From positions 1-16,551 of the forward strand of contig JAFXRA010000269.1 of the NCBI GenBank assembly GCA_017526725.1: a stretch of DNA of 16,551 nucleotides, in the 5' to 3' direction. The notes under the pieces are model-generated. The model saw only the letters and a list, made by a program, of their open reading frames with translations, was not told the origin of the DNA and did no database searches. Shown here one piece after another: positions 6 through 16,435 of the stretch. Source of the stretch: Candidatus Rifleibacteriota bacterium. GTDB taxonomy: Bacteria; Riflebacteria; Ozemobacteria; Ozemobacterales; Ozemobacteraceae. Numbering within the stretch: the stretch's first letter is position 1; every line of letters begins with the position of its first letter. A program made the translations under genes and the position numbers.

Positions 6-123
6 TCCTGGTGGTTACAGTCTGGAGGAAACACCTGATCCCATTCCGAACTCAGCAGTTAAGCTCTAAGACGCTAATGGTACTGCGGGGGCAGCTCCGT
101 GGGAGAGTCAGTCGCCGCCAGGT
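6..123 (+). rRNA. rrf: 5S ribosomal RNA
   Basis: This is the RNA component of the large ribosomal subunit. The ends pair as helix I: CCTGGTGG at 7-14 with CCGCCAGG at 115-122, 8 bp with one G-U pair. Between them are the conserved 5S signatures: GAAACACCTGATCCCATTCC around 28-47, then CGAACTCAG, the TAAG of loop B/helix III, and TGGGAGAGT near 100-108. The length of about 117 nt is normal for bacteria. A strong terminator follows 5 nt downstream, so this is probably the last gene of an rRNA operon whose 16S and 23S lie left of the window. A 115-residue open frame overlapping it is not a gene. Confidence 0.96.
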
Positions 124-127
124 CTAT

Positions 128-158
128 AAAGCCCCGAACGAAAAACGTTCGGGGCTTT
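128..158 (+). terminator. Rho-independent terminator of the 5S/rRNA operon
   Basis: A perfect 13-bp stem (128-140 with 146-158) with GC-rich core GCCCCGAACG and an AAAAA loop ends in a TTTT run. It lies directly behind the 5S rRNA. Confidence 0.95.
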
Positions 159-190
159 TCCATTTTAGGCTTTTTTTAAAACCTCCACTT

Positions 191-218
191 GGCTCTTCAA
201 TCTTCTATCTTGTATCTA
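191..218. repeat. Degenerate 7-bp tandem repeat (4 units)
   Basis: Four consecutive heptads end in CTT or CTA; the first two are GGCTCTT and CAATCTT. On the minus strand they read as AAGANNN-type units. They lie between the 5S terminator and the next promoter. The same 7-nt periodicity with AGAGNNN or AGGGNNN units recurs in other gene gaps of this window (near 3339, 12521, 12743, 12847 and 16443). This is one of the weaker arrays. Confidence 0.5.
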
Positions 219-244
219 AACAAAAAATAAACCTTTCAACTCCC

Positions 245-273
245 TTGACAGTTGTTCTTACTATTCTTATAAT
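245..273 (+). promoter_or_regulatory. Perfect-consensus sigma70 promoter
   Basis: TTGACA at 245-250 and TATAAT at 268-273 are separated by exactly 17 bp, an unmodified consensus housekeeping promoter. It points at the glycine-zipper gene starting at 336. With transcription starting about 7 bp past the -10, the leader would be roughly 55 nt. This implies strong constitutive transcription unless a repressor or RNA-level control operates. Confidence 0.9.
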
Positions 274-335
274 TAGCATAGGGTTGTACCGTTCGACCAT
301 AATTTCTATAAGCTTTATAAGAGCGGAGGCACATC

Positions 336-1985
336 ATGCTTACCACGAAACAACTTAAAAGAATGTCTGTCATTACTTTAGTGGCATTCGTTTTCTCTAT
401 GCTTGCAGGTTTCACAACTACTGCAAATGCTGCATTGCTTAGTCTTCCGACTAATAGCAATTCTGCTACAACTGTTACTGTTAGCAATGACTTGGCTGCA
501 TTAAATACTGTTTTGCCAGAATTAAATTCTTTAAACAGCACTTTAAGAACAGCTGAATCTACCGCTAGAACTCTTGAAAATGTTGCTACACCTATTTACA
601 ATCGGGTTGTTCCAACAAATATGGATACAATGAGCATTGCAGAACGCTGCAAAGCAATCATTAACAATGCTAAGAATGTTTTGAGCGATACTCTTAAAAC
701 TTCTACTGCCAATGCCAATGAAAAAAGAGCTCAGGGTGCTTATATTGCAGACCTTCAGAGCGATGAAAAGATTGCTCTTGGTATTCAGGAACTTGGCAAA
801 CAGGCTGCTAAGCTTGATAATGTCGGAAATAATTCTGCTGCAATTCAGAAGATTAAAGCTATTCTTACCTCTACTAAACAGACTTTGAGCAAAGTTGTTG
901 TTAATGTTAGAGAAAAGATTTTCAAAGTTGGCCAAAAAGTTGGTTTGATTAGTGAAGATAAAGTCTTTGAAAATGGTAAGGTAGTTGATAAATCTGAAGC
1001 CTCTGGTTCTAAAGAAAATGTAGAAATTTCTGGTGCTGGTTATGCTAAGACCTCTGGAACAAAAGTTTCTTTTGCTGATAAACTTAGTTCTGGCTTAAAA
1101 GAAGGCGTTGCTAATGCAAAGACTTCTTTGAAAAACTCTTTCTCAGTTAAGAATATAGCTATTACTACTGCAGTTACAGTAGGAACAAGCCTTGCTGTTG
1201 ATGCTATTAATGGTGAAACTCCATCTTTGAAGAAGGCTGTTAAACAGGTTGCTTCTTTGGAATTTGCCGGTAATGTTGTAGGTTCTGCATTGGGTGCTGC
1301 TGGCGGTCAGGTTGTCGGCACTCTTGCTAAGACTTTTATACCTGGTATTGCAGGTCAGCTTATTGGTTCTGTAATTCCTGTAATGTTTTCTTCAGCCGGT
1401 GGTCAGCTTACTTCAAATGTTATTACTGGTCTTAAGAATGGTGAATTCTCTATCAGTAAAGCTTTCAAACAGATTGACAAAGCTGATTTAATTGGTTCTT
1501 CTATTGGTTCAACTATTGGTATGACTCTTGGTTCTATGATTCCTGTTCCTGTTGTCGGCACTATACTTGGTGGTATTGTAGGCGGCTTCGTAGGCAGCAA
1601 GGTTGCTAAATTTGTCAGCGGTCTCTTCGGTAAAAATAAAAACAAAAACTCTACTGTTGCAAGTGGTAATGTTACTGCTGTTACAAGTGGAATCAGCGGA
1701 ACTGCCGGTACTTCAAGTTCAGAAGTTGTTGTAGCTTGTTCTCCTCAAATATCTGCTTCTGGTGATGCTATTTCTTCATCAGCATCTGGTGTTAGCGGAA
1801 AAGTTACAGTTAAAGATCCTGCTATTGCTAAACGAATTCAGGAAATCGAAGACGAATACTATAAGAATTACCTTGAATATAATCGCTTACTTGAAGCAAA
1901 TGATATTGAAGGAGCTAAGGTAATATTCCAGAACCTTAAGAAATGTTCTGATGAAGTAGCAGCTTTAAGAAGAGCCTTAAAGTAA
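336..1985 (+). CDS. Secreted glycine-zipper protein, function unknown
   Basis: The product has 549 residues. The ATG follows GGAGG (324-328) at good spacing. Residues 1-32 form a Sec signal peptide: basic start, hydrophobic core, ANA before the cut at about 32/33. The mature N-terminus (about 50-200) is alanine/serine-rich and probably helical. Two hydrophobic glycine-zipper blocks follow, about 306-354 and 383-432, with many GxxxG spacings (for example GGIVGGFVGSK at 412-422). After a Ser/Thr/Gly linker, the last 50 residues (497-549) form a charged amphipathic helix. Glycine zippers of this type occur in membrane-inserting or pore-like envelope proteins and some toxins; that role is inference. 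It is monocistronic: its own consensus promoter and a strong terminator 11 nt after the stop. I do not recognise a named family. Its highly expressed, rRNA-adjacent setting suggests an abundant envelope protein. Confidence 0.88.
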   Translation: MLTTKQLKRMSVITLVAFVFSMLAGFTTTANAALLSLPTNSNSATTVTVSNDLAALNTVLPELNSLNSTLRTAESTARTLENVATPIYNRVVPTNMDTMSIAERCKAIINNAKNVLSDTLKTSTANANEKRAQGAYIADLQSDEKIALGIQELGKQAAKLDNVGNNSAAIQKIKAILTSTKQTLSKVVVNVREKIFKVGQKVGLISEDKVFENGKVVDKSEASGSKENVEISGAGYAKTSGTKVSFADKLSSGLKEGVANAKTSLKNSFSVKNIAITTAVTVGTSLAVDAINGETPSLKKAVKQVASLEFAGNVVGSALGAAGGQVVGTLAKTFIPGIAGQLIGSVIPVMFSSAGGQLTSNVITGLKNGEFSISKAFKQIDKADLIGSSIGSTIGMTLGSMIPVPVVGTILGGIVGGFVGSKVAKFVSGLFGKNKNKNSTVASGNVTAVTSGISGTAGTSSSEVVVACSPQISASGDAISSSASGVSGKVTVKDPAIAKRIQEIEDEYYKNYLEYNRLLEANDIEGAKVIFQNLKKCSDEVAALRRALK

Positions 1986-1996
1986 AATAATCTGAT

Positions 1997-2034
1997 AAAA
2001 AAAAAGACCAGCTTATAAAGCTGGTCTTTTTTTT
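1997..2034 (+). terminator. Rho-independent terminator
   Basis: GACCAGCTT (2006-2014), loop ATA, and AAGCTGGTC (2018-2026) form a perfect 9-bp stem. It is preceded by an A-run and followed by eight T residues, so it could work in either direction. It ends the glycine-zipper transcript. Confidence 0.94.
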
Positions 2035-2035
2035 A

Positions 2036-2064
2036 TTGACTATAAAGCAATTGCATAGTAATAT
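2036..2064 (+). promoter_or_regulatory. Candidate sigma70 promoter of the purD-like gene
   Basis: TTGACT at 2036-2041 (5 of 6 consensus) and TAATAT at 2059-2064 (4 of 6) have 17-bp spacing, immediately behind the T-run of the preceding terminator. Its position inside the open frame upstream of the chosen TTG start argues that the upstream codons are not translated. Confidence 0.6.
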
Positions 2065-2092
2065 TGCACAAACTAATAAAAGAGGCTTAAAG

Positions 2093-3340
2093 TTGAATAT
2101 ACTTGTCCTTGGCTCAGGTGCTCGTGAACATTCTTTTGTTCATGCATTAGCTAAATCTCCAACAGTACATAAAATTTTTGCTTGCCCTGGCAATGTGGGT
2201 ATGTCTGATACTACTATCTGCAAGCGAATTCCTTCCAGGTCTAATACAGAACTAGTATCTTATTGTAAAGATAAGATAGATTTGGCTGTTGTTGGCTCTT
2301 CTAAATTTGTAGAAGAAGGAACTGTTGATGCCTTGGTTCTTGCAGGTATACCTGTTATTGGTCCTGCTGAAGATGCTGGAAGAATTGAAACAAGTAAAGC
2401 TTTTGCCTCTCGCTTTATGGCGCGACACAATATTCCATCGCCAGCTACAAGTATAATTGTAAATTTGTTTGAAGCTGAACAGGCTTTATTTAAAAATCCA
2501 GATTTAAGAGTAGTTAAATGTGATGGTTTCTCTAGAGGAAGCGGTGTTTCAGTCTGCAATTCTTTAGAAGAAACTCAGGAAGAAATAAAGAAAATTCTTG
2601 AAAAACAAGGTGCTCCTGTAATATTGCAAGAAAAGCTTGAAGGAATTGAATGCTCCTATACTCTTTTGACAGACGGACATCAATGGATTTCTTTTAGTTC
2701 ATGTCGCGATTACAAAAGAATTCTGGAAGATGACCAAGGAGCTACTACCGGTGGTATGGGTGCTGTAAGTCCGTCACCAGATCTGACTCCTGAATTGGAA
2801 AAACAGATTATTGATACAATTGTTCAGCCAGTAGTTGACGGTATGAAAGAAGATAATCTGCTTTATAAAGGTTTTCTTTCCATTCAGCTTATGCTGACAA
2901 AAGATGGCCCGAAAGTTTTGGAATTTAATGCTAGACTTGGTGATCCTGAAACTCAAAGTATTTTAACTCGTTTCAGAGGTGATTTAGCCGGTATCTTAAA
3001 AGACTGTGCAATGGGTTGTCTAACCAATATCGGTTCTGAAGTTGCTTTTGGTAAACATTCTTCTGTCTCTGTGGTTATTGCTAGGGAAAACTATCCGGAA
3101 GATGAAAGTACAGAACCTGTTGTTGCAGGAACTGAAAATGTTCAGGATTCTGTTATTTTTTATTCAAGCTGTAGAAAAGCTGAAAATAGAGAAGGCTATT
3201 ATTTTAAGAGCGGCCGTTTAATCAGTGTTACAGCAGTTGCAGAAACCTTGGAAGAAGCTAGAAAACTTTGCTACGATGACATAGACCGCTTACAGTTAAA
3301 AGGTGTAAGATACCGCAAAGATATTGGGCTTAAGAAATAG
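2093..3340 (+). CDS. purD: Divergent phosphoribosylamine-glycine ligase (GARS) family ATP-grasp enzyme
   Basis: The family joins phosphoribosylamine and glycine with ATP to give GAR, step 2 of purine synthesis, in the cytoplasm. I place the start at TTG 2093: AGAGG at 2081-2085 is well spaced and the resulting N-terminus NILVLGSGAREHS matches PurD. The product is then about 415 residues (E. coli 429). Matching landmarks are PGNVG, SKAFASRFMARHNIP, TTGGMGAVSPSP, GFLSIQLM, EFNARLGDPETQ and the C-terminal YRKDIGLK. It departs from the family at usually invariant sites: the GPEAPL-type substrate loop reads GSSKFV, the KADGLAAGKGV nucleotide loop reads KCDGFSRGSGV (Lys to Ser), and GNGGREHA reads GSGAREHS. 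No other purine genes lie in the window. It is probably a ligase of this fold. GAR synthesis itself is likely, but a paralogue with another acceptor is possible. Confidence 0.85.
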   Translation: MNILVLGSGAREHSFVHALAKSPTVHKIFACPGNVGMSDTTICKRIPSRSNTELVSYCKDKIDLAVVGSSKFVEEGTVDALVLAGIPVIGPAEDAGRIETSKAFASRFMARHNIPSPATSIIVNLFEAEQALFKNPDLRVVKCDGFSRGSGVSVCNSLEETQEEIKKILEKQGAPVILQEKLEGIECSYTLLTDGHQWISFSSCRDYKRILEDDQGATTGGMGAVSPSPDLTPELEKQIIDTIVQPVVDGMKEDNLLYKGFLSIQLMLTKDGPKVLEFNARLGDPETQSILTRFRGDLAGILKDCAMGCLTNIGSEVAFGKHSSVSVVIARENYPEDESTEPVVAGTENVQDSVIFYSSCRKAENREGYYFKSGRLISVTAVAETLEEARKLCYDDIDRLQLKGVRYRKDIGLKK

Positions 3341-3359
3341 AGCACAGAGCGTAGAGCAA
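3339..3359 (+). repeat. Three AGAGCNN heptads
   Basis: Three exact-phase heptads, the first two AGAGCAC and AGAGCGT, begin inside the purD stop codon. A fourth, degenerate unit AGAGAAG lies at 3384-3390, touching the palindromic element that follows. Same family as the arrays near 12847 and 16443. Confidence 0.65.
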
Positions 3360-3387
3360 AGTGTTAAGAACCCACGTAAACGAGAGA

Positions 3388-3466
3388 AGTCAACTCATTT
3401 GTCATAAAAAGGATAGCGTATGGGCTTTAGCCCTGAAAGCTATACGTTTATGACAATGGGTTGACT
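3388..3466 (-). repeat. 79-bp palindromic intergenic element, complete copy A
   Basis: This is a long imperfect inverted repeat. Outer arms AGTCAAC/GTTGACT pair; then CATT/AATG, an 8-bp GTCATAAA/TTTATGAC helix and ATAGC/GCTAT follow, with a small GGGC-TTTA-GCCC hairpin at the apex. It matches the reverse complement of 16287-16365 at 73 of 77 core positions. Strand is given relative to the copy at 16287. Two of the four differences are a compensatory A-T to T-A swap in the outer stem, indicating that the folded form is conserved. It lies between the convergent purD and pilB operon ends, where it could stabilise 3' ends or act as a terminator, though it has no T-run. Confidence 0.85.
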
Positions 3467-3575
3467 ACAATATGTTGTGTTGATTACCGCGCCTATAGCT
3501 CTCCCTTTACAGGACAAGCAATGACGATTTGAAATACTGATTAATAGCTAAAAAAGTTTGCGTTTGCCCTGCAAT

Positions 3576-3752
3576 CTAATCTCGTTTAAAAAAGAAGATT
3601 ATTTCCCCGATAAGTCCGAAAATAATACCTGCTATTGGTATCCAGAGCGGGAAAGAAAAAGTGCGGTCAATATGTTGAATCAGCACAATTTCTTTCGGGC
3701 GTTCTGCTTTATTAGTTCTAAGTTTTAATTCTTCTGGCTTATTCTGGTTCAT
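3576..3752 (-). CDS. Small one-helix membrane protein, translationally coupled to pilB
   Basis: A 58-residue product too short for usual calling. Its ATG (3752-3750) overlaps the pilB stop TGA as ATGA, the classic coupling arrangement, and it ends with TAG at 3578-3576. Residues 1-33 are highly charged (MNQNKPEELK, then KAERPKE). Residues 34-55 form one hydrophobic helix beginning FPLWIPIAGIIFGLIGEI, and the tail is KRD, suggesting a membrane protein with its charged N-terminus in the cytoplasm. A glutamate sits in the helix. I do not recognise a family. Being last in the pilB operon it may be a small accessory of the pilus or secretion machinery, but that is inference from position only. It has no strong independent ribosome binding site, consistent with coupling. 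Confidence 0.72.
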   Translation of the reverse strand: MNQNKPEELKLRTNKAERPKEIVLIQHIDRTFSFPLWIPIAGIIFGLIGEIIFFFKRD

Positions 3753-6700
3753 AGCATTTCTGCTCTAACATCTAAGAGTCTATTATGTGCGGCAGCTAAC
3801 TGCTGTATCTTTTCGACTATATCTAACAGACCTTTTGAACGCAAGCCAGGAATGAGAGAATCGATGAATACCAGCTTAACTTTGGGGTGAGATGGATCAG
3901 AATAGCCTGTTCCTCTGTCATCACCTAATAGCCAGTAAATGAGCTTGTCGCAGTAGGGTACCCAATTAGAAAAATCGCTTAAATCAGAATGTGCGTTTAA
4001 ACGAGGTATCAAAATCTGGGGTACATATTCAACCTGATTAGAAGCGTTAATATAAATGCGTTCGTTTTCAGGAACTATTGGTGCTATTTTCAAATTTGGC
4101 AGAGTGACTTTGAATCTGGCTTTGCCGAATTGATTTATAGCTATTTTTTCAGCGAATACTTCCCATTTTGTTTCTATTTCTTGAATTTCACGAGAGTAAT
4201 TGAATAGAATCTTCTGGAAGGCTTCGTTGGTCTTCAGTTCAGGCATTAAGTTTTCCAATGCCTTGAAGGGAGAATGATCAAATAAAGAGCCGAGCATCTG
4301 CCCCAGGCCGTTGCTGATAAAATGCCGTCTGGTTAAATGGGTAACAGCTTTTTCATTTGTTAGATGAAGCTTTTCTGTAATCAGCCACTGAGTTGCATCT
4401 TTAGCTATTTCTAATGCATTAGGCAGTTTCCAGATTTCGTTCTGTTCATTGAATTGCCAAGGCTTGAACTGGTCTTTATAAGCATTGTCTATTACCTGAT
4501 ACAGATTCTGGTTGAATAAGTCTAAAAGCTTAGACAGGCCATTCATATGGAATTCTCTTATAGAAATCCGTTTTGGTATGTCTTCATAAGGAATGCCCAA
4601 GCGTTCTTCTATTAGCCATTTTGTAGCGTCAGCAGCTATTTCTAGTTTATTTTCCTGGAACCATATTAGCTGTTCTTCTTCTGTGAATTGCCATTGTTTG
4701 AATATTCCAGGGTAAACCTGATCAACGATTCTGAAGCAGGAACCATCAAATTTATTTAATAATGCTTCTAGGCCATTGTCGATAAAAGTTTGTCTGGTCA
4801 GCATTGTTGGGAGGTCGCCTCTGCTGCACTGCAGTTTTTCGCTCATGAGCCAGGTTAAAGCTTCTCTTGCGCAAGCTTGTAAGTCTTTGCTGTTTAACCA
4901 GCTTTCAACTTCTCCAAACTGCCATGCTTTGAATTTGCCAGGCATAGCTAATTCAATAAGTTTGAATCTGCTTCTTTCAGCCCATTCATAAACCTGACCA
5001 AGATTGTTTGTATATATAAAGCCTTCATCAAATTCTCTAGGCAAATCATCAGGTTTGTTCAGTCTGTTTTTGATTTTTTCTAAGGCTTTTATTACTGCTT
5101 GTGAAACCCAGACTGGAGCCATTTTTTCATCGGCCAGAATAAAAGCTGGTATTTCGCCTTCCTGTGCATTTATCAAATCTATTATTTCGCCTACATCTGA
5201 TTCGTTGAAATCAGAGGCTTTGCTACCGAAATGTGTTTCAAAGGATTCCGGAGTTCTGTCTAATTCTTTTGCCTGCATCAGTTCTTTAATCTGAATAACT
5301 GGCAAATGCAGTTTATCTGCTAATTTTTCATCTGTTAGGAATAGGAAATCTTTTTCTATTGCAGATATGATAGTTTTTGTAACAGGGTCATTCAAGTCAA
5401 GAACAGGTGCTTGAGTTTGAACAGCGGTATTTTGTTGAGGAACGCTAGATACTTGAGGTATCTGACCATCTCTTTGAACCATAGCTTGAGGGGGCATCTG
5501 AACCGGAAGAATGAAATTGTTGACGCTGCTGGCATTTCCAAGCCCTGAAAGACCAGGAATACTAATAGTCTTTTCTTCTTCATCAGAAGGAGTTACGTAA
5601 ATTACTTCTTCTAAGGTTGATTCACCCTTCATTGCCAGTTCAAGAGCACTTTCTCTAAGAGTTCTCATTCCTTCAAGTCTGGCAACACGTTTAATTGCGT
5701 TTTCGGTTCCACCTTCCATAATGACGTTCTTTATTGAATTTGTTACAACCATTACTTCATAAACGCCTAAACGACCATGAATACCTGTTTTATTACATTC
5801 TTTACACCCAGTGCCTTTATAGAATTTGTTTCCGATAAGTTTTGCCGGTGACATACCCAATCTTTGAATTATATTGGGAGAAGGTTTGTATTCTACGGAA
5901 CAGTATGGGCAGTTCTTGTGAAGAAGTTTCTGAGATATGACAACTCTAACTGCTGCAGTAACGAGATAGGCAGGAACACCCATATTGATAAGTCTGTTTA
6001 TTGTTGCAGGTGCGTTGTTTGTATGAATTGTAGAAAGAACTTTATGACCTGTTAATGATGCTCTGAAAGCGATGTCTGCTGTTTCTAAGTCACGAATTTC
6101 GCCTACGAGAATAACATCAGGGTCTTGACGCAATGCTGTTCTTAAACCTGTTGCAAAATCTAATCCGATTTTGTCGTTAATCTGAACTTGGGTAATACCC
6201 GAAATTCTGTATTCTATAGGATTTTCAATGGTGAAAATGTTGATTTCACTATTGTTGAAATATTTGAGCATACCGAACAGAGTTGTGGTTTTACCTGCAC
6301 CGGTAGGTCCTGTAACAAGAATAAGACCGTAAGGTTCGTCTAATGCTGATTTTAATCTGTTTAAATCATCTTGGAAGAACCCTATGTTATCTAAGTCGAA
6401 TTTGCTTTCTCTTTGAAGCAGACGCAAAACAGCTTTTTCCCCTAAGAGACTTGGAACGGTGCTTACACGAAAGTCTACTTCATTATCCTGCATCTTAACT
6501 TTCAAACGGCCGTCTTGAGGAAGTCTGCGTTCAGCAATATCAAGATGTGAAAGAATCTTGATTCTGCTGATTAATGGGGCTAAAAGGCTTTTGGGACCAG
6601 TCATAGCATCGTGAAGGATACCATCTATTCTAAATCTTACTAGAAGCATTTCTTCACGTGGTTCAACGTGAATATCTGAAGCTCTTTTTAGAATAGCTTG

Positions 6701-7273
6701 TTTGAAAACTGCATCAAGAAATCTGACAACAGCGCCCTGTTCAGAAGTTTTCTTTTCTATATCCAAGCCATCTTTCTTTATGTCTTCTTCTTGAGATTTT
6801 ATGGTTTCGTCGCCGCTAGAAGAGAAACCTTCCCAAGAGTAAAGCTGTCGAATAGCTAGATCAATCTGGCTTTTAGAGGCAATATAAACTTCAAGTTTGC
6901 ATTGGGTTAGAAAAGCAATCATGTCGGTTGCCATGATATCGAATGGGTCGGCCATGACAACAGTCAGCTTATTCCCTTCCTTTTTGTAAGGAATCATCTT
7001 ATATTGCTTGGCATTATATTCTGGAATAAGTGAGAGAAGTTTAGCGTCTATTTTAATGTTAGTTAAGTCAACTACTGTTGAACCGAGCATTTCTGCCCAG
7101 ACATCCAGTATCTGCTTTTCAGTTAGGAAGCCTAGGCGGATAATTATGTCTTCAAGCTTTTCAAGTGTTTGAGATTGTATATTTTTAGCCTTTTCAAGCT
7201 GTTCATTTGTGATTAGATTTTTCTGAAGAAGCATGGTTTCTACAGAAATCTTATTATTTACGGGACTAGGCAT
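3749..7273 (-). CDS. pilB: PilB/GspE-type secretion ATPase with long C-terminal repeat extension
   Basis: A hexameric cytoplasmic ATPase that drives type IV pilus extension or type II secretion. Residues 1 to about 150 form the GspE N-terminal (MshEN-like) domain. The ATPase core is about 175-560: Walker A GPTGAGKTTT (322-331), Walker B ILVGEIRD (388-395), His box STIHTNN (415-420), and zinc tetracysteine C455, C458, C490, C493. Relatives end near 560-580 residues; this one has 1174. A Pro/Gln-rich linker (about 570-625) leads to roughly four degenerate 65-75 residue repeats (about 727-784, 798-863, 877-941, 954-1011) with (A)TxWLxxEkL, F...NGL..LL and YP..FK.WQF signatures, then a unique C-terminal domain. 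ATG follows GGAGGA 6 nt upstream. It sits 18 nt after the BsuPI gene in the kam operon. No other pilus gene is visible here. ATPase assignment is certain; pilus versus secretion is not. Confidence 0.93.
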   Translation of the reverse strand: MPSPVNNKISVETMLLQKNLITNEQLEKAKNIQSQTLEKLEDIIIRLGFLTEKQILDVWAEMLGSTVVDLTNIKIDAKLLSLIPEYNAKQYKMIPYKKEGNKLTVVMADPFDIMATDMIAFLTQCKLEVYIASKSQIDLAIRQLYSWEGFSSSGDETIKSQEEDIKKDGLDIEKKTSEQGAVVRFLDAVFKQAILKRASDIHVEPREEMLLVRFRIDGILHDAMTGPKSLLAPLISRIKILSHLDIAERRLPQDGRLKVKMQDNEVDFRVSTVPSLLGEKAVLRLLQRESKFDLDNIGFFQDDLNRLKSALDEPYGLILVTGPTGAGKTTTLFGMLKYFNNSEINIFTIENPIEYRISGITQVQINDKIGLDFATGLRTALRQDPDVILVGEIRDLETADIAFRASLTGHKVLSTIHTNNAPATINRLINMGVPAYLVTAAVRVVISQKLLHKNCPYCSVEYKPSPNIIQRLGMSPAKLIGNKFYKGTGCKECNKTGIHGRLGVYEVMVVTNSIKNVIMEGGTENAIKRVARLEGMRTLRESALELAMKGESTLEEVIYVTPSDEEEKTISIPGLSGLGNASSVNNFILPVQMPPQAMVQRDGQIPQVSSVPQQNTAVQTQAPVLDLNDPVTKTIISAIEKDFLFLTDEKLADKLHLPVIQIKELMQAKELDRTPESFETHFGSKASDFNESDVGEIIDLINAQEGEIPAFILADEKMAPVWVSQAVIKALEKIKNRLNKPDDLPREFDEGFIYTNNLGQVYEWAERSRFKLIELAMPGKFKAWQFGEVESWLNSKDLQACAREALTWLMSEKLQCSRGDLPTMLTRQTFIDNGLEALLNKFDGSCFRIVDQVYPGIFKQWQFTEEEQLIWFQENKLEIAADATKWLIEERLGIPYEDIPKRISIREFHMNGLSKLLDLFNQNLYQVIDNAYKDQFKPWQFNEQNEIWKLPNALEIAKDATQWLITEKLHLTNEKAVTHLTRRHFISNGLGQMLGSLFDHSPFKALENLMPELKTNEAFQKILFNYSREIQEIETKWEVFAEKIAINQFGKARFKVTLPNLKIAPIVPENERIYINASNQVEYVPQILIPRLNAHSDLSDFSNWVPYCDKLIYWLLGDDRGTGYSDPSHPKVKLVFIDSLIPGLRSKGLLDIVEKIQQLAAAHNRLLDVRAEML

Positions 7274-7291
7274 ATATTCCTCCGGTCAGAT

Positions 7292-8101
7292 TTACTCAAC
7301 TTCTATTCGATAAGAACGACGTTCTAATGCTACGGTTTTGTTTAAAGAACTGGGATATGCATATATATCAAATTCTACATGCCCGATTCTTCTCGGCAAA
7401 AAAGTGATTGTAATTGTTTCTGGGTTAATCTTTCTACTTGTTGCTCTAATTCTGTTATCGTTGTACTTGTAAAAGATTTCCCAAACAAGTTCATATTCAT
7501 TGGCAAATCTAGGTAATTCTAATTCGAAAGCCTGATTTAGTTTTGTAAATATAATTTCTTGCTTTATTACAGATGGCGGTCCTAATCTAAACTTTACTTC
7601 ATTTGAAACAAGAGTTTTGGGATAACAGGTGGCTAAGCCAACACATTTATAAATTCCCTGTGGAAGGGGGGCACCAAATTTATTTACACTCACCCAACTG
7701 AGTTGCTCGCTTTTCGATTCACCAGGAGCAAGCGGAATACTGTGGGGAGATTTCTTCCAGGTAAAGCCGTTAGACCATCTGAAAATCTGGCTGGCTCCGC
7801 TGTAAATAACCATATCAAACTGTCTGCCTGAAGAATATTCAACATTTATCGGATATTTGTTTTTATTGGTTAGCATAATAGTAAAGGTCGCTATTGAACC
7901 AGCAGCAAATTCATAAGATTCTGGATAAATACTTACTTCAAGACCTTTTATGTATGGAAAACGGTAATCAGATCTATTTACATTAGAATATTTGCTTTTT
8001 ACATAGAAAAAATGTGAATCTTCAGAGGCGGCTTCTGATTTGTATGAAGCAAAGAAAATTGATACTAATATAATAATAGAAACTAAGTATTTGAGTTTCA
8101 T
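7292..8101 (-). CDS. Secreted BsuPI-domain protein
   Basis: The product has 269 residues. An N-terminal signal peptide (MKLKYLVSIIILVSIFFAS..., cut near 24-25) sends it out of the cytoplasm; there is no lipobox cysteine. Residues about 53-174 match the BsuPI fold, the immunoglobulin-like domain first named for the Bacillus intracellular proteinase inhibitor: FTIMLTNKNKYPINVEYSSG, QFDMVIY, FRWSNG, LAPGESKSEQLSW and LPQGIYKC. The last 95 residues look like a second beta-rich domain I do not recognise. A secreted BsuPI protein is more likely a structural or binding module than a protease inhibitor. SD AAAGG stands 6 nt before the ATG. It lies 9 nt after the methyltransferase frame and 18 nt before pilB, so a link to pilus or secretion function is plausible but inferred. 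Confidence 0.82.
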   Translation of the reverse strand: MKLKYLVSIIILVSIFFASYKSEAASEDSHFFYVKSKYSNVNRSDYRFPYIKGLEVSIYPESYEFAAGSIATFTIMLTNKNKYPINVEYSSGRQFDMVIYSGASQIFRWSNGFTWKKSPHSIPLAPGESKSEQLSWVSVNKFGAPLPQGIYKCVGLATCYPKTLVSNEVKFRLGPPSVIKQEIIFTKLNQAFELELPRFANEYELVWEIFYKYNDNRIRATSRKINPETITITFLPRRIGHVEFDIYAYPSSLNKTVALERRSYRIEVE

Positions 8102-8110
8102 TTATAACCT

Positions 8111-8689
8111 TTATTTTTTACACCAGTAAACTATTGCAGGTGGAAAATTAGTCCACACAACGGGACTGAGATGGAATTCTGAAAAATACATTTTCAGCTT
8201 TTTACGAATTTTACAAGCTCCAGGCAGATAAAAACCATGCAGATAGGTAAATGTAGTAAATACTCCTCCTTCTGCTAAGGCATCTACTGTGGGTTTTAGT
8301 ATTTCATCCTGAAGTTTGTCAGGAAAAATAGCCCATGGAAGTCCGCTAACTATTGCATCTGCGTGGTCTTTCCCATGTTTTTTCAGTTGTTAATTAATAT
8401 TTGCAGCAGAATCTTTTATTATTTCTACTCCTGGAAGTAGTTCACTGCAAATTTTATGTAATTTATCATCAATTTCGAAACTAAAGAACATAGTTTTTTT
8501 CTTGTCTATGCGATTTGCAATATATTGAGTAAAAACTCCAGTTCCAGCACCATATTCTACAATTGTTTCCACATGATTTAAGTCAACTGGTGCCACCATT
8601 TGAACAGCAAGCTTCTCGGTGCTGGGAGCTATAGCTCCTACATAGCTCGGGTGTTTGATGCATTGAGAAATAAATTCTAGCGTTTTCAT
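8111..8689 (-). pseudogene. SAM-dependent methyltransferase (PmtA/phospholipid N-methyltransferase-like) with in-frame stop
   Basis: The frame opens at 8689 and gives 99 residues to a TAA at 8392-8390. It then continues in the same frame for 92 more sense codons, starting QLKKHGKDHADAIVSGLPW, to a TAA at 8113-8111. The joined 191 residues fit a class I methyltransferase of the phospholipid/rRNA-dimethylase-like type: N-terminal FISQCIKHPSYVGAIAPST, motif I VEYGAGTGVFT (about 43-53), acidic FSFEID (about 69-74), and motif IV-like SGLPW (about 115-119), which lies beyond the stop. The 99-residue product alone lacks the catalytic half. One G-to-T or C-to-T type change (GAA or CAA to TAA) explains it, and there is no frameshift. 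It sits 6 nt after kamE and 9 nt before the BsuPI gene. A sequencing error or stop readthrough are alternatives. Confidence 0.8.
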
Positions 8690-8695
8690 TATTAA

Positions 8696-9484
8696 TTACT
8701 TCATTTTCCTTTTAACAAATTCATCGATAAAGAATGATGCAACGTCTTCTGAATACTTTCCTGGGCCAAAACCGGCATCATAACCGAGTTCTTTGGCTAA
8801 ATCATTTGTAATTCTAGGACCTCCGGCAATAAGAATAACTTTATCTCTAAGATTTGCGGCTTCAAGTTGTTCTACTAATTCTACCATATTTGTAATATGT
8901 ATGTCTTTTTGGGTTACTGTTTGGGAAACAAGCAAAACGTCCGCTTTTAATTCGACTGCTTTCTTTATGAAGTCTTCATTTGCAACCTGACTACCAAGGT
9001 TATAGGCATCTATCATCTGATATCGTTCAAGACCATAGTGACCAGCATAACCTTTCATGTTCATGATTGCGTCGATTCCAACTGTGTGAGCGTCAGTACC
9101 AGTGCTTGCTCCTATAACAATAAGCTTGCGGCCGATTCTTTCTTTAATAAAATCATCTACTGCATGCATGTCTAAAACTTCTGACTCTATTGTACTTACT
9201 TTTATTGTTGTTATATCAATTGTATGAGTAAGGTTACCATAAGCAATATAAAAGGTGAAATTTTTGTCTAATGCCTGATGGAAACAAACTTGAACATCAT
9301 CAAGACCCATTTTGGCAGCTAGCTGTCTAGCAGCTTCTAATGAACGGTCATCGTCTGGAACAGGAAGCGTAAAGCTGACCTGAGTTTTCCCGTCATTCAT
9401 GGTATCGCCGTAGGGTTTGAGTTTTGTTAAATCAAGCTTCTGGTTAAAATCTTTTACTTTTGTAGAATATAATCCGCTGCTCAT
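8696..9484 (-). CDS. kamE: Lysine 5,6-aminomutase, beta (cobalamin-binding) subunit
   Basis: With KamD it moves the terminal amino group of D-lysine or L-beta-lysine from C6 to C5, a radical reaction using adenosylcobalamin and PLP in anaerobic lysine fermentation. At 262 residues it has normal length. The base-off B12 motif DxHxxG is DAHTVG, with the cobalt-ligating histidine at His133. The PLP Schiff-base lysine falls at Lys144 (NMKG); both residue numbers agree with those described for the clostridial enzyme. GASTGT precedes them, and the Rossmann-like domain continues with LLVSQTVTQKD. The N-terminal about 100 residues form the dimerisation domain. The ATG overlaps the kamD stop as ATGA, so the subunits are translationally coupled. 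Confidence 0.96.
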   Translation of the reverse strand: MSSGLYSTKVKDFNQKLDLTKLKPYGDTMNDGKTQVSFTLPVPDDDRSLEAARQLAAKMGLDDVQVCFHQALDKNFTFYIAYGNLTHTIDITTIKVSTIESEVLDMHAVDDFIKERIGRKLIVIGASTGTDAHTVGIDAIMNMKGYAGHYGLERYQMIDAYNLGSQVANEDFIKKAVELKADVLLVSQTVTQKDIHITNMVELVEQLEAANLRDKVILIAGGPRITNDLAKELGYDAGFGPGKYSEDVASFFIDEFVKRKMK

Positions 9485-11040
9485 TCTCTTTCTCCCTTCA
9501 GCATTAATTCAATAAAGGGGTTATAGTAGTCTTTATGTTTTTCTGTAACGCCGTTTAAGCCTTTTCCGCCATTAATTGGGCGTTTAACGCCAGCAAACTT
9601 GCCTTGTTCAAGAGTTTTGAACAAACCCTCTGTCTTAATTTCTGCAAGCATATTGCAGGCCTTTGTTAGAACTTCATGAGCTCTCTTGCTCATTATACCA
9701 TCTTTCTTAAATTCTAATTCACTACCCAAATCAGCCATGGTGTTGAAAATATAGCTGGCATTTTCTATTGAAAGAGCACGGTCTGACATCAATGGCGTAT
9801 GAATTGCTTCTGTCAGCATTCCCAATAGATGAAGTTTCTGGCCGGTCAAAATGGTTACCATGTTGAACAGTGCGTCTTGAACATGGCCTCTGAAAATATT
9901 TCCGGTCATGAATTTTGTTGGCGGCATATATTTTAATGGTGCTTTGGGGAAGATTTCTCTAGCCATCTGAGCTTGAGCAAGTTCAAATAAGAAGCCGTTC
10001 TTTAAACTTGGGTCTATTTCAAATGCATGACTTAAGCCCATTTGTTCTTCTGGAATACCAGATACCAGAGCAAATTGTTCGTTTATAAATTGAGAAGCCA
10101 ATACTGTGTGAGCTTCTTCAACAGCATCTGAAGTTGTGAGATAGTTATCTTCGCCTGTATTTATGATTACACCAGCAAAACCATTGATGATTCTGGAAAA
10201 ATACTGGTCGATAAGGGTTCTTTGCATGTTGATATCACGGAAAAGAATACCATACAAAGCATCGTTAAGCATTACATCAAGACGTTCTAATGCGCCCATT
10301 GCTGCAATTTCCGGCATGCAAAGACCGGAACAGTAATTGCACAGTCTGATATATCTGCCAAGTTCTTCGGAAACTTCATCCAATGCTTTTCTCATTAATC
10401 TGAAGTTTTCCTGAGTAGCATAGGTGCCGCCGAAACCTTCTGTTGTTGCGCCATAAGGAACATAGTCTAAAAGACTCTGGCCTGTTGTTCGGATTACGGC
10501 AATAATATCTGCACCTTGCTTAGCAGCGGCTTTTGCCTGTGTAATATCTTCATAGATATTTCCTGTAGCAACAATTACATAAAGGTAGGGGCCTTTTTTA
10601 TCGCCAAATTTTTCTAAGAATTTGTTTCTGTTTCGTCTGTTATTTCTTATTCTTTCGATTGTTTGAAGAGCTATTTCATCAATTTTAGCCTTGATTTCAA
10701 ACATGTCGGCCATTTTCAGCTTGGTAATATCAAATTCTTTTTTAGATACAGCTTCGGCTATTTCTTGAGGAGTTTTACCTGTTTGAATAATAGCGTTGCC
10801 TAAATATACAGATAAACCTAATGATAAACCATTTGCAGCTTTTAAGCTGTCTACTATGACATTAGGCAAAGGTACGCCATTTGCATCTACTCCATCTATT
10901 CCAAGAAGTCTTGCACAGGTTCTTTCAATAGTAACACTGGTGTGTTTTTCTATAAAACGTTGAGTGTCGGCAGCTATCTCTCTCGCATACTGCCTAGCTT
11001 TTTCAACTAAGCTGAAATCTAAATTAAGTTTGCTATTCAT
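9481..11040 (-). CDS. kamD: Lysine 5,6-aminomutase, alpha subunit
   Basis: The large TIM-barrel subunit of the B12/PLP aminomutase formed with KamE. I take ATG at 11040-11038 (519 residues) over the adjacent upstream TTG because GAGGA stands 7 nt before the ATG and only 4 nt before the TTG. The whole length matches KamD: VEKARQYAREIAADTQ at the N-terminus, ERTCARLLGIDGVDANGVPLPN, LCNYCSGLCMPEIAAMGALE in the middle, and NIFRGHVQDALFNMVTILTG towards the C-terminus. It is the first gene of the operon, preceded by an extended -10 promoter. The other lysine-fermentation genes (kamA, kdd, kce, kal) usually linked to it are absent from this window, so its substrate may be D-lysine or beta-lysine made elsewhere. 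D-ornithine aminomutase is unlikely because there the subunit organisation differs. Confidence 0.96.
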   Translation of the reverse strand: MNSKLNLDFSLVEKARQYAREIAADTQRFIEKHTSVTIERTCARLLGIDGVDANGVPLPNVIVDSLKAANGLSLGLSVYLGNAIIQTGKTPQEIAEAVSKKEFDITKLKMADMFEIKAKIDEIALQTIERIRNNRRNRNKFLEKFGDKKGPYLYVIVATGNIYEDITQAKAAAKQGADIIAVIRTTGQSLLDYVPYGATTEGFGGTYATQENFRLMRKALDEVSEELGRYIRLCNYCSGLCMPEIAAMGALERLDVMLNDALYGILFRDINMQRTLIDQYFSRIINGFAGVIINTGEDNYLTTSDAVEEAHTVLASQFINEQFALVSGIPEEQMGLSHAFEIDPSLKNGFLFELAQAQMAREIFPKAPLKYMPPTKFMTGNIFRGHVQDALFNMVTILTGQKLHLLGMLTEAIHTPLMSDRALSIENASYIFNTMADLGSELEFKKDGIMSKRAHEVLTKACNMLAEIKTEGLFKTLEQGKFAGVKRPINGGKGLNGVTEKHKDYYNPFIELMLKGERE

Positions 11041-11080
11041 CAATCATTCCTCAAAAAGAATAATAAATTATCAGTGTACC

Positions 11081-11089
11081 ATTATACCA
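11081..11089 (-). promoter_or_regulatory. Extended -10 promoter of the kamDE-pilB operon
   Basis: On the minus strand this reads TGGTATAAT: a perfect TATAAT preceded by TGn, about 40 nt before the kamD ATG. I see no good -35 at 16-18 bp, as is common for extended -10 promoters. No other clear promoter is visible before downstream genes, whose spacings are -4 to 18 nt. Confidence 0.65.
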
Positions 11090-11136
11090 CCAATTCTAAG
11101 AATTCATAGTTTTTTCTAGTCAGTTTAACTTTATTA

Positions 11137-11164
11137 TTTACTAGAAATTTATTTGTGCTACAAT
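11137..11164 (+). promoter_or_regulatory. Extended -10 promoter of the solute-binding protein gene
   Basis: TTTACT at 11137-11142, a 16-bp spacer, and TACAAT at 11159-11164 preceded by TGC (TGn) fit sigma70 with an extended -10. It faces away from the kam promoter in the same 148-bp divergent gap. Confidence 0.55.
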
Positions 11165-11188
11165 AATAGCTGTCGTTGGAAGGTTTTT

Positions 11189-12496
11189 ATGAAAAATATA
11201 ATTGTTTATATAATAATATTTATTGTTTTGATAGCAGGAATAGCTACAGGGCAGATTGGTTTTCTAAGTTCTAAGGCAGATGACGGCAAGGGTTCTGTTT
11301 ACTATTTGAATTTTAAACCAGAGCAGGACCAGGCTTGGCAGGAATTGGCAAAATATTATACTCAGAAGACAGGCGTTCCTGTGACTGTTGTTACTGCGGC
11401 ATCTGGTCAGTATATGACTACCTTGGCGGCCGAACTGAGCAAAATAGATGCGCCGACTCTTTTCCAGATTCAGGGACCTTCAACCCTCAACGGCAAAGAA
11501 GATTTCTGTTATGATTTGGCTGTTTCTGATATTTATAAGGAACTTACAGATGAAGCTTATACTTTGAAATCCAATAAGGGAAAGATTTGCGGAATTGCCT
11601 ACACTATAGAGTCTTACGGTTTAATTGCAAATTTAAAGCTTTTAAAGAAAGCTGGTTATAGTAAAAGTGACATCAATTCTTTTGCTGATTTAAAGAAGAT
11701 TGCAGAAGATATTACTGCACGAAAGAATGAACTTGGCTTTGCTGCTTTCTGTTCATCGGGTATGGATAATTCCTCTAACTGGCGCTTTACTACACATCTT
11801 GCCAATATGCCTCTATATTTTGAATATAAAGATAAGAATCTTTCTATTGAAGAAAAGCTTGATGGCAAGTATTTGAACAACTACAAAGCTGTTTGGAATT
11901 TATATATCAACAATGGCACCTGCGAACCTAAAGAAATTTCTGCAAAAACTGCTGATGATGCAAGAAATGAATTCTTAGCAGAAAAGGGTGTTTTTTATCA
12001 GAACGGTTCTTGGGAATTTGCAAACCTTGTTTCAGATAAGGCTTTTAAAGCTGAAGACATAGCTATGCTACCGATTTTTATCGGCGCAGGAGAAGAAGCA
12101 AAACAGGGGTTGTGTACAGGGACGGAAAATTTCTGGTGCGTAAACCAGAAATCTTCGAAATCAGATATAAAAGCAACTCTGGATTTCATCAACTGGTGCG
12201 TTACTTCTGAAGAAGGAACAAAGGCTATGGCTGAAAAAATGGGTTTTGTTATTCCGTTTAAGAAGGCTTTAAAATCTGAAAATGCTTTTGTAATCCAGAA
12301 TGACAATTATTCAAAAGAAGGCAAAACGCCGGTTGCCTGGTCTTTTACTACTATTCCATCGCAGGAATGGAAGAATATGCTAAACACCACCTTGACTCAG
12401 TATGCGGCTGACCAGAGTGAAGAAAACTGGAAGCAGGTTTCAAAGGCTTTCATCGATAACTGGGAGCACGAATACAAGCTCGCAAATGGAATATGA
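11189..12496 (+). CDS. Extracellular solute-binding protein of a sugar-type ABC transporter
   Basis: The family captures a carbohydrate outside the inner membrane and hands it to a permease. The start is ATG 11189, after GGAAGG (11178-11183) and at the natural beginning of the signal sequence (MKNIIVYIIIFIVLIAG); the 12 upstream codons overlap the promoter and are discarded, leaving 435 residues. After the signal the domain begins GSVYYLNFKPEQDQAWQELAKYY, the usual first strand of family 1 binding proteins; GIAYTIESYGLIANLKLLKKAGY is the typical hinge-region motif and FINWCVTSEEG is near the end. There is no lipobox cysteine, so it is either free in the periplasm or kept by an uncleaved anchor. 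A terminator follows 1 nt after the stop, and no permease or ATPase gene is next to it, so it is an orphan binding protein. Confidence 0.9.
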   Translation: MKNIIVYIIIFIVLIAGIATGQIGFLSSKADDGKGSVYYLNFKPEQDQAWQELAKYYTQKTGVPVTVVTAASGQYMTTLAAELSKIDAPTLFQIQGPSTLNGKEDFCYDLAVSDIYKELTDEAYTLKSNKGKICGIAYTIESYGLIANLKLLKKAGYSKSDINSFADLKKIAEDITARKNELGFAAFCSSGMDNSSNWRFTTHLANMPLYFEYKDKNLSIEEKLDGKYLNNYKAVWNLYINNGTCEPKEISAKTADDARNEFLAEKGVFYQNGSWEFANLVSDKAFKAEDIAMLPIFIGAGEEAKQGLCTGTENFWCVNQKSSKSDIKATLDFINWCVTSEEGTKAMAEKMGFVIPFKKALKSENAFVIQNDNYSKEGKTPVAWSFTTIPSQEWKNMLNTTLTQYAADQSEENWKQVSKAFIDNWEHEYKLANGI

Positions 12497-12497
12497 G

Positions 12498-12520
12498 TGA
12501 AAAAGGCTTTGCCTTTTTCA
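12498..12520 (+). terminator. Terminator-like hairpin after the solute-binding protein gene
   Basis: TGAAAAAGGC, loop TTT, and GCCTTTTTCA form a perfect 10-bp stem starting 2 nt after the stop codon. The T-run is inside the 3' arm rather than behind it, so efficiency is uncertain. Confidence 0.7.
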
Positions 12521-12548
12521 AGGGATTAGGGAATAGGGAGTAGGTCTT
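12521..12548 (+). repeat. AGGGNNT heptad array (4 units)
   Basis: Three exact-phase AGGGNNT units (the first two AGGGATT and AGGGAAT) and a degenerate fourth beginning AGGT start at the foot of the preceding hairpin. They belong to the same 7-nt periodic family as the other gaps. Confidence 0.6.
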
Positions 12549-12584
12549 TAAAGCTAAGCTTTGCTTAATAGTTAAGACTTTTAC

Positions 12585-12702
12585 GGACAGCAGCTTGCTC
12601 AACCTTATTCTCCTCCGCGGTCTCTGAAGATTTCTACCTTCGGATAATTTTTGTGGGAACGAGCCTTGTGCGGAGAATAGAAGGTTTCGCGTCTAGCTGT
12701 CC
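12585..12702. repeat. Second palindromic intergenic element (118 bp)
   Basis: Outer arms GGACAGC (12585-12591) and GCTGTCC (12696-12702) pair. Inside, AACCTTATTCTCCTCCGC (12601-12618) pairs imperfectly with the complementary strand of 12670-12686, GCGGAGAATAGAAGGTT. Its left arm (12586-12626) recurs at 16395-16435 with 39 of 41 identities, so it is a dispersed repeat. Its right end abuts, to the base, the half copy of the 79-bp element that follows. Confidence 0.7.
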
Positions 12703-12743
12703 TAAAGCCCATACGCTATACTTTTTATGACAAATGTGTAGAC
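12702..12743 (+). repeat. 79-bp palindromic element, right-half copy B
   Basis: All 42 bases are identical to 16323-16364, the right half of the complete copy, starting in the apical hairpin and ending with GTAGAC. The left arm is missing and is replaced by the end of the 118-bp palindrome. Confidence 0.85.
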
Positions 12744-12762
12744 TTCTCTTATCTTATGCTCT
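12743..12762 (-). repeat. AGAGNNN heptads beside half element
   Basis: On the minus strand two heptads (AGAGCAT and AGAGAAG) flank one 6-nt unit, immediately adjoining the half palindrome. Degenerate; supported mainly by similarity to the neighbouring arrays. Confidence 0.4.
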
Positions 12763-12788
12763 AAAAAATAGTTAATTAGTTTAATCTG

Positions 12789-12797
12789 TGTTATATT
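12789..12797 (+). promoter_or_regulatory. Possible extended -10 promoter of the lipoprotein gene
   Basis: TGT followed by TATATT, about 105 nt upstream of the start. No convincing -35 at proper spacing. The leader would contain the heptad array at 12847. Confidence 0.35.
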
Positions 12798-12846
12798 AAA
12801 AACTCTAGAGAATACTTAAAAGCTTGTTATAGCAGAATCTAAAACA

Positions 12847-12882
12847 ATTCCCTATGCTCTTTTGCTCTATGCTCTAATCTCT
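12847..12882 (-). repeat. AGAGCAT-type heptad array (5 units)
   Basis: On the minus strand five units, including AGAGCAT twice, run in register apart from one extra A. The array ends about 5 nt before the ribosome binding site of the lipoprotein gene, so it would be in the mRNA leader. The remaining parts of this 405-bp gap hold the terminator, the palindromes and other heptads listed separately. Confidence 0.65.
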
Positions 12883-12901
12883 TACCGAAGAGGTACAGAA
12901 A

Positions 12902-16286: not shown

Positions 16287-16365
16287 AGTCTACCCATTGT
16301 CATAAACGTATAGCTTTCAGGGCTAAAGCCCATACGCTATACTTTTTATGACAAATGTGTAGACT
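16287..16365 (+). repeat. 79-bp palindromic intergenic element, complete copy C
   Basis: Outer arms AGTCTAC (16287-16293) and GTAGACT (16359-16365) pair. The inner helix GTCATAAA-type pairing and the GGGC/GCCC apical hairpin (16320-16331 region) are as in copy A, in opposite orientation. An additional GTAGACT at 16257-16263 could pair alternatively with 16287-16293. Confidence 0.87.
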
Positions 16366-16394: not shown

Positions 16395-16435
16395 GACAGT
16401 TGCTTGCTCAACCTTATTCTCCTCCGCGGTCTCTG
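16395..16435 (+). repeat. Left arm of the second palindromic element, truncated copy
   Basis: Identical over 34 bp (16402-16435) to 12593-12626, and 39 of 41 identical from 16395. The complementary right arm is absent; a short TCTCT/AGAGA pairing and heptads follow instead. Confidence 0.8.

Follow-up and report, generated by a model that had tools for sequence, protein, structure and literature searches.

A 79-bp palindrome as the probable hairpin core of small MITE-like elements in one clade of rumen Riflebacteria

We analysed a stretch of 16,551 nucleotides from a Candidatus Rifleibacteriota bacterium (the window), in which a 79-bp palindrome occurs twice in full. The palindrome is a small non-coding mobile DNA module, present in dozens to more than 100 copies per genome in one clade of rumen Riflebacteria. 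We consider it probable that it forms the hairpin core of several small, non-autonomous, MITE-like transposons of this clade and that the paired changes in its stem arose mainly by template switching. According to this explanation, a DDE-type transposase supplied in trans would recognise the terminal repeats and move the unit, recombination between copies would swap cores between shells, and truncation would leave bare palindromes. The stem changes would come mainly from replication template switching, in which one arm is recopied from the other, and the changed copies would then be amplified. The unusual parts are a core common to unrelated ends, two cores in one set of ends, and the better conservation of the core.

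Copies in the window and in related genomes

Copy 1 lies at 3388..3466 on the plus strand (AGTCAAC...GTTGACT) and copy 2 at 16287..16365 on the minus strand (AGTCTAC...GTAGACT); the latter is near the family consensus. Both are imperfect palindromes, and a repeat search of the window paired the two places with each other as inverted arms, 95% complementary. When the 77-nt cores were compared in the same orientation, 73 of 77 positions were identical, and the differences fell at positions 4, 7, 24 and 74. Positions 4 and 74 pair with each other, as A-T in copy 1 and as T-A in copy 2. The sequence-only reading had reported the coordinates of both copies, the identity of their cores and the swap at pair 4, and all of these were confirmed in the sequence. 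Its description of a compensatory change is correct for pair 4, but it mentioned neither the half copy at 12702-12744 nor position 24, where a T to G change in copy 1 breaks a pair and leaves one uncompensated change between the two copies. Both copies fold stably on both strands (z from -6.6 to -9.2; 0 of 200 shuffles were as stable in each of the four folds).

The half copy, copy 3 (12702..12744, minus strand), is truncated at the hairpin tip. There it adjoins E2, a different dispersed repeat of about 117-125 bp, which takes up 12584..12702 (plus strand) where the other half would be. Genome G002 has a full palindrome at the orthologous site, and genome G004 has the half-copy arrangement of the window. 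Half-copy breakpoints lie mostly near the hairpin tip; allowing for the fragment lengths that can be detected, we regard their clustering there as weak evidence. A fragment of E2 is also found at 16395..16435 (plus strand), at a distance of 31 nt from copy 2 that recurs in other palindrome-E2 composites. Beside copy 1, the right arm and end of a B-type element (described below) occupy 3530..3570 (plus strand). Positions 3551-3570 match the B terminal repeat exactly on the minus strand, and the arm next to them resembles the one in the B element at locus L002. We found no left B end near copy 1, and therefore the B-type element there looks like a remnant.

The window contains several other features. 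A 5S rRNA gene lies at its start (7-123). Positions 3749-7273 encode a 1174-aa Type II/IV secretion ATPase, with Pfam matches within residues 64-558 and approximately 600 aa without a match. Overlapping genes for two subunits of D-lysine/D-ornithine aminomutase were assigned by Pfam at 8696-11043. The 996-aa protein encoded at 12902-15892 has five Listeria-Bacteroides repeats and a C-terminal sulfatase-modifying-factor domain, and its gene contains internal DNA repeats of 228 bp.

At least 101 contig stretches contain an exact 23-nt piece of the core. Those listed belong to four assemblies, of which three bear the title Candidatus Riflebacteria and the fourth is uncultured bacterium RUG334 (G004); there were 0 occurrences in viral contigs. 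A covariance model search of 39 genomes of the phylum of G002, these four among them, detected the palindrome in 4, with at least 112, 109, 87 and 30 matches, which are lower bounds since 121 candidates were scored per genome. The further genomic copies expected from the sequence alone are therefore present, and nearly all of them are intergenic. Most copies were collected by the exact 23-nt pattern, so that positions 34-56 are over-conserved in the alignments; 16 of the 129 full copies do not contain the pattern.

Across 800 kb of long stretches we counted 17 copies (8, 3 and 6 copies in 400, 220 and 180 kb, respectively), a biased density, as these stretches come from contigs already known to carry matches. 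Open reading frames of at least 90 aa make up 91.6% of 40 long stretches and were overlapped by 3 of 91 judged copies. The reading frames used for gene context are heuristic, and the counts leave out 38 of the 129 full copies, which had no neighbouring reading frame on one side. Convergent gene pairs surround 26 of 88 copies, compared with 18% of the background intergenic length (31/219 by count), and divergent pairs surround 16 of 88, compared with 26% of that length. Between co-directional genes, 30 copies are oriented opposite to transcription and 16 along it. The lean of the copies to convergent intergenic regions is moderate. In the open-access papers searched we found no account of palindromes in Riflebacteria. 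Among the matches listed there was also no account of insertion sequences or MITEs of Riflebacteria, and none that names both transposable elements and Riflebacteria.

Ends, cores and mobility of the elements

The A-type unit has a consensus of 180 bp, which folds end to end and carries 17-bp terminal inverted repeats (GAGGCTGTGCTAAAACT/AGTTTTAGCACAGCCTC). In loci fetched mostly for the palindrome, A end pairs were found 170-185 bp apart in 25 cases. A wider scan gave 42 A-end pairs, some of them overlapping, and exact 5- or 6-bp direct repeats flanked 11 of these (7 around the palindrome and 4 around another core), where approximately 0.05 would be expected with equal base frequencies. Examples of the duplications are TCGCA, TGTAT, TATAA, CGAAAG, CGCCAG and ATAACG. 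Among the palindrome-bearing pairs exact duplications occur at 7 of 31, not at most of them. In L012, L090, L095 and L188 the A-type elements have TCGCA as their insertion site, in surroundings that resemble ...TCGCAATGACG and may themselves belong to a further dispersed repeat.

Across the four genomes we counted 76 exact matches to the A-end pattern and 0 to its reversed control. These 76 ends were chosen regardless of the palindrome: 38 enclose the palindrome, 22 enclose an unrelated CCCCCTTTCGTAAAGGGGG hairpin core, 11 have other content (several of them include palindrome fragments) and 5 run into a contig end. The A-ended elements with the CCCCCTTTCGTAAAGGGGG core are about 147 bp long. 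We observed elements of 147-148 bp with a CCCCCTTTCGTAAAGGGGG-like core at L188, L197, L198 and L204-L207, some with duplications of up to 6 bp. The flanks of 122 palindrome copies were long enough to classify. A complete A flank stands on each side in 20 of them, one of which matches a B end as well, and in 25 neither side has a recognised flank.

Among the loci examined, B-type ends (AGGGCAAACGCAAACTTTTT) enclose the palindrome in six elements (161-224 bp) and other hairpins in four (113-318 bp). The B element in L104, with the palindrome, has a flanking direct repeat matching at 11 of 12 positions, and that in L091, without it, one matching at 10 of 12. The other five palindrome-bearing B elements have flanks that match at 2 to 8 of 12 positions and no good duplication. 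Two B-ended elements of 314-318 bp without the palindrome (L091:3369-3682 and L168:1769-2086) contain a row of approximately six short hairpins (e.g. CCTAGGGCGTTGTAAACGCCCTAGG, GCGTCTGGAAGACGC), the stems of which differ by paired changes between the two copies.

The E2 repeat has the ends GCGGACAG/CTGTCCGC in most copies among the matches listed. When E2 lies 5' of the palindrome it is 31 nt away in 5 of 6 cases, one of which is copy 2 of the window; in the 7 cases 3' of the palindrome it is 10-66 nt away. The relative orientation of E2 and the palindrome is opposite in 13 of 13. At L105:17423-17841 three tandem-like E2 copies have a shared spacer. Altogether, one core is common to unrelated ends, and one set of ends carries two unrelated cores.

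A palindrome with its own mobility, inserted repeatedly into different MITEs and bare sites, would also explain why one core recurs in A, B and E2 contexts as well as without any flanks, and why it looks younger than the A arms. We consider this quite unlikely. Direct repeats at the palindrome's own borders were no more frequent in 124 copies than in re-paired flanks; the best repeat within 3 nt of the borders was 4 in seven copies and 5 in one. Since there is no such excess, the moving unit appears to be a larger element. The A-type elements and two B-type elements (L002 and L042) have approximately 10 bp to the left and 17 bp to the right of the palindrome in common, and therefore the exchanged unit appears to be larger than the palindrome itself. 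Among the comparisons made, no bare palindrome had a clean empty site.

Such a site was found for an A-type element. The element in L043, which has lost its right end, is absent at the orthologous sites in L057 and L029, from two other species. At copy 1 of the window, L035, L006 and L100 the palindrome is missing from the partner, but the difference extends over the entire intergenic region. Synteny between the window and RUG334 (85-90% nucleotide identity) spans 70-14149 and is broken at 3343-3589, the place of copy 1, where the intergenic region is unalignable. Other sites are occupied across species: the intergenic region of L084/L147 carries the palindrome in both G002 and G004, in the same orientation and with different flanks, and the window site at 12702 is occupied in G004 and G002 too. 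The A-type unit thus shows the features of a MITE, namely a length below 500 bp with terminal inverted repeats, target-site duplication, and sites with and without the element. The sequence-only reading had proposed a mobile MITE-like unit, and the terminal inverted repeats, the 5-6 bp duplications and the orthologous site without the element bear it out. The filing as a MITE rests on structure (ends, duplications and one clean polymorphic site) and not on a parent element.

Searches of the four draft genomes with PF01609, PF13751, NF033559 and PF05598 found no transposase with A or B ends; because the genomes are drafts, this absence of an autonomous element is weak evidence. Across 9 of the 16 listed open reading frames of the window there was no Pfam transposase family, in agreement with the statement of the sequence-only reading that the window has no transposase gene. 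Two elements were considered as helpers and rejected, as their ends are neither A nor B: an IS4-like element with ends CCCAATGTCATTAAGTTAAG (L115, with a relative at G001:C1) and an element with ends TAGTGTYTGCTCAATA (L210). Two NF033559 matches below the cut-off (L208 and L209) correspond to the same two IS4-like places.

The sequence-only reading had also suggested a REP-like unit. On this view a RAYT (Y1) transposase would recognise the hairpin directly and move a REP/REPIN-type repeat. This would agree with an extragenic palindrome in up to about 110 copies, with Y1 family genes in 3 of the 4 genomes and with the lack of duplications at the palindrome's own borders. However, the two Y1 proteins scored, of three, match IS200/IS605 above the cut-off and REP_Tyr_transpos below it or not at all, and the draft with most palindrome matches (G002) has no Y1 match. 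The short loci of the Y1 genes do not contain the palindrome, except for one copy about 1 kb from the Y1 fragment in L104, and no linked RAYT gene was seen in these short loci of the draft genomes. Further, the unit is 79 bp long and lacks the unpaired GTAG/CGTC tag at one end; GTAG is confined to the paired foot. The A-type copies have terminal repeats with 5-6 bp duplications, and Y1 transposition is not known to produce such duplications. We therefore found no support for a Y1 transposase with the same ends and regard the RAYT explanation as very improbable.

The core and the shell differ in conservation. In pairwise comparisons of 25 A-type elements, most of which come from loci located by means of the palindrome, the outer arms of the palindrome were 92-93% identical, the inner arms of the element 71-72% and the ends 78-80%. 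In 24 elements found via an exact end (a set that includes L196, a badly aligning composite) the palindrome was nearer to the consensus than the inner arms in 19 (0.937 vs 0.879; sign p = 0.007); the mean for the ends was 0.926, with one end conserved by construction. The core has a different history from the shell, either through exchange or conversion among copies or through selection. A core better conserved than its shell is the reverse of ordinary MITEs and possibly a sign of selection; we prefer exchange, because cores and shells have visibly recombined. One may also imagine that the transposon-like shells (A, B and E2) swap hairpin cassettes and that the hairpin, homogenised by template switching and conversion, would be the selfish unit and the ends disposable, which we find doubtful.

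Paired changes in the stem

We aligned 41 diverse copies from the 129 full copies; 40 of them were picked for diversity, which raised the variation. In this alignment 92.6% of cells pair, and both-side changes occur in 33 cells at 10 of 30 pairs, compared with 13.4 in shuffles (0 of 500 shuffles reached the observed value). The covariation is concentrated in the outer stem. It is real in the further copies, and so the test that the sequence-only reading had set for refutation, absent copies or variation without kept pairing, did not refute it.

Among the 129 full copies, 101 of them distinct, pair 2 is T-A in 52 and C-G in 29. An A left flank goes with C-G in 26 copies and with T-A in 8, and a gagagataagagaa left flank with T-A in 29 and with C-G in 3. 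The split follows the element lineage; therefore the change at pair 2 reflects few events. Double changes comprised 51 Watson-Crick, 2 wobble and 6 bad combinations, giving a paired total of 53. Single-side changes comprised 37 G-T, 32 A-C and 71 other, of which the A-C and the other changes, 103 in all, break the pair. DNA-level processes predict equal G-T and A-C, and RNA selection would favour G-T on one strand.

Some changes are linked along one arm. In the 5' arm, repair of the A.G mismatch at pair 7 goes with repair of the bulge at 10-12, both of them irregularities of the consensus: 8 copies have both repairs, 4 and 5 have a single one and 96 have neither (Fisher 1e-6; 113 copies in the 5'-arm table, with 14 of 129 unparsed). 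Because the C7/short-bulge copies could stem from a single amplified copy, this p value overstates independence. No linked repair was detected in the 3' arm (p = 0.6). Both arms of L028-4790 have been rewritten and now match over about 19 bp. In three copies a block of three pairs has changed as a unit, and other copies show partial states of it. Compensatory changes made by template switching have been reported for RNA genes (PMC8794818). Judged from the sequences, the stem changes look more like arm-to-arm copying than like a working RNA. We favour correction by template switching because changes are linked or symmetrise whole arms, because G-T and A-C are about equal, and because pair 2 follows the lineage. 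The sequence-only reading had held that selection or a mechanism keeps the folded form. A mechanism fits better; selection is a weak inference, as only copy 1 of the window, 1 of 101 distinct full copies, has A-T at pair 4, and 30 of the 53 paired changes are Watson-Crick changes at pair 2.

Selection would act on the hairpin if it were a functional RNA or DNA element (an mRNA 3'-end stabiliser, a bidirectional terminator or a protein-binding hairpin) that was spread by MITE shells. The better conservation of the core, the covariation above all 500 shuffles, the excess at convergent sites and the retention of one intergenic site between diverged flanks in G002 and G004 (L084/L147) would fit such a role, as would the conserved mismatches and the nearly invariant apical part, although part of the apical conservation stems from searching with the 23-nt pattern. 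On the other hand, there is no clear excess of G-T over A-C (37 vs 32), pair-breaking single-side changes outnumber paired ones (103 vs 53), the copies between co-directional genes are not aligned with transcription, and the element is absent from one orthologous site in two species. We found 0 intrinsic terminators (GC-rich stem followed by a T run) at the two full copies of the window, which gives no support to the RNA hairpin at 3' ends suggested from the sequence; the lean to convergent regions is the moderate one given above. In the promoter scan nothing was found at the palindrome, and two promoter-like matches fell outside it. At gathering score the Rfam scan of the window matched only 5S rRNA and no family for the palindrome. 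We consider a functional element under selection unlikely.

Comparison with known systems

Hundreds of copies with compensatory stem changes and no evidence of RNA function are a warning for covariation-based RNA discovery. The palindrome family is also a place to measure template-switch correction in bacteria, and short mobile elements with recombining ends and cores could explain the origin of new MITE families.

The palindrome resembles the template-switch hairpins described in PMC8794818 in its multi-base paired changes and in the symmetrisation of arms in one step. These are reported there for RNA genes, whereas here we have a dispersed mobile palindrome with no sign of an RNA role.

Prokaryotic MITEs such as QMITE1 and QMITE2 of Coxiella and Chunjie of Geobacter are described in PMC10969869. 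Like these, the Riflebacteria elements are shorter than 500 bp and intergenic, with terminal inverted repeats, target duplications in younger copies, strong secondary structure, REP-like truncated copies and tens of copies. The termini of QMITE1 are relatively better conserved according to PMC10969869, whereas in the Riflebacteria elements it is the core. Also unlike these MITEs, one core occurs here in shells with unrelated termini, one shell has two unrelated cores, and the parent IS was not found.

The REPs and REPINs (PMC3733652, PMC3116915) are likewise high-copy extragenic palindromes, often located between convergent or co-directional genes. They are 20-40 bp long and carry an unpaired GTAG/CGTC tag, whereas the palindrome is 79 bp long and has no such tag. 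Unlike REPs and REPINs, the palindrome showed no RAYT association, and its host elements have transposon-like ends and duplications.

The BIMEs of enterobacteria are mosaic repeats of palindromic units and other motifs in fixed combinations. The Riflebacteria elements are mosaic units like BIMEs, but they are bounded by transposon-like ends with target duplications.
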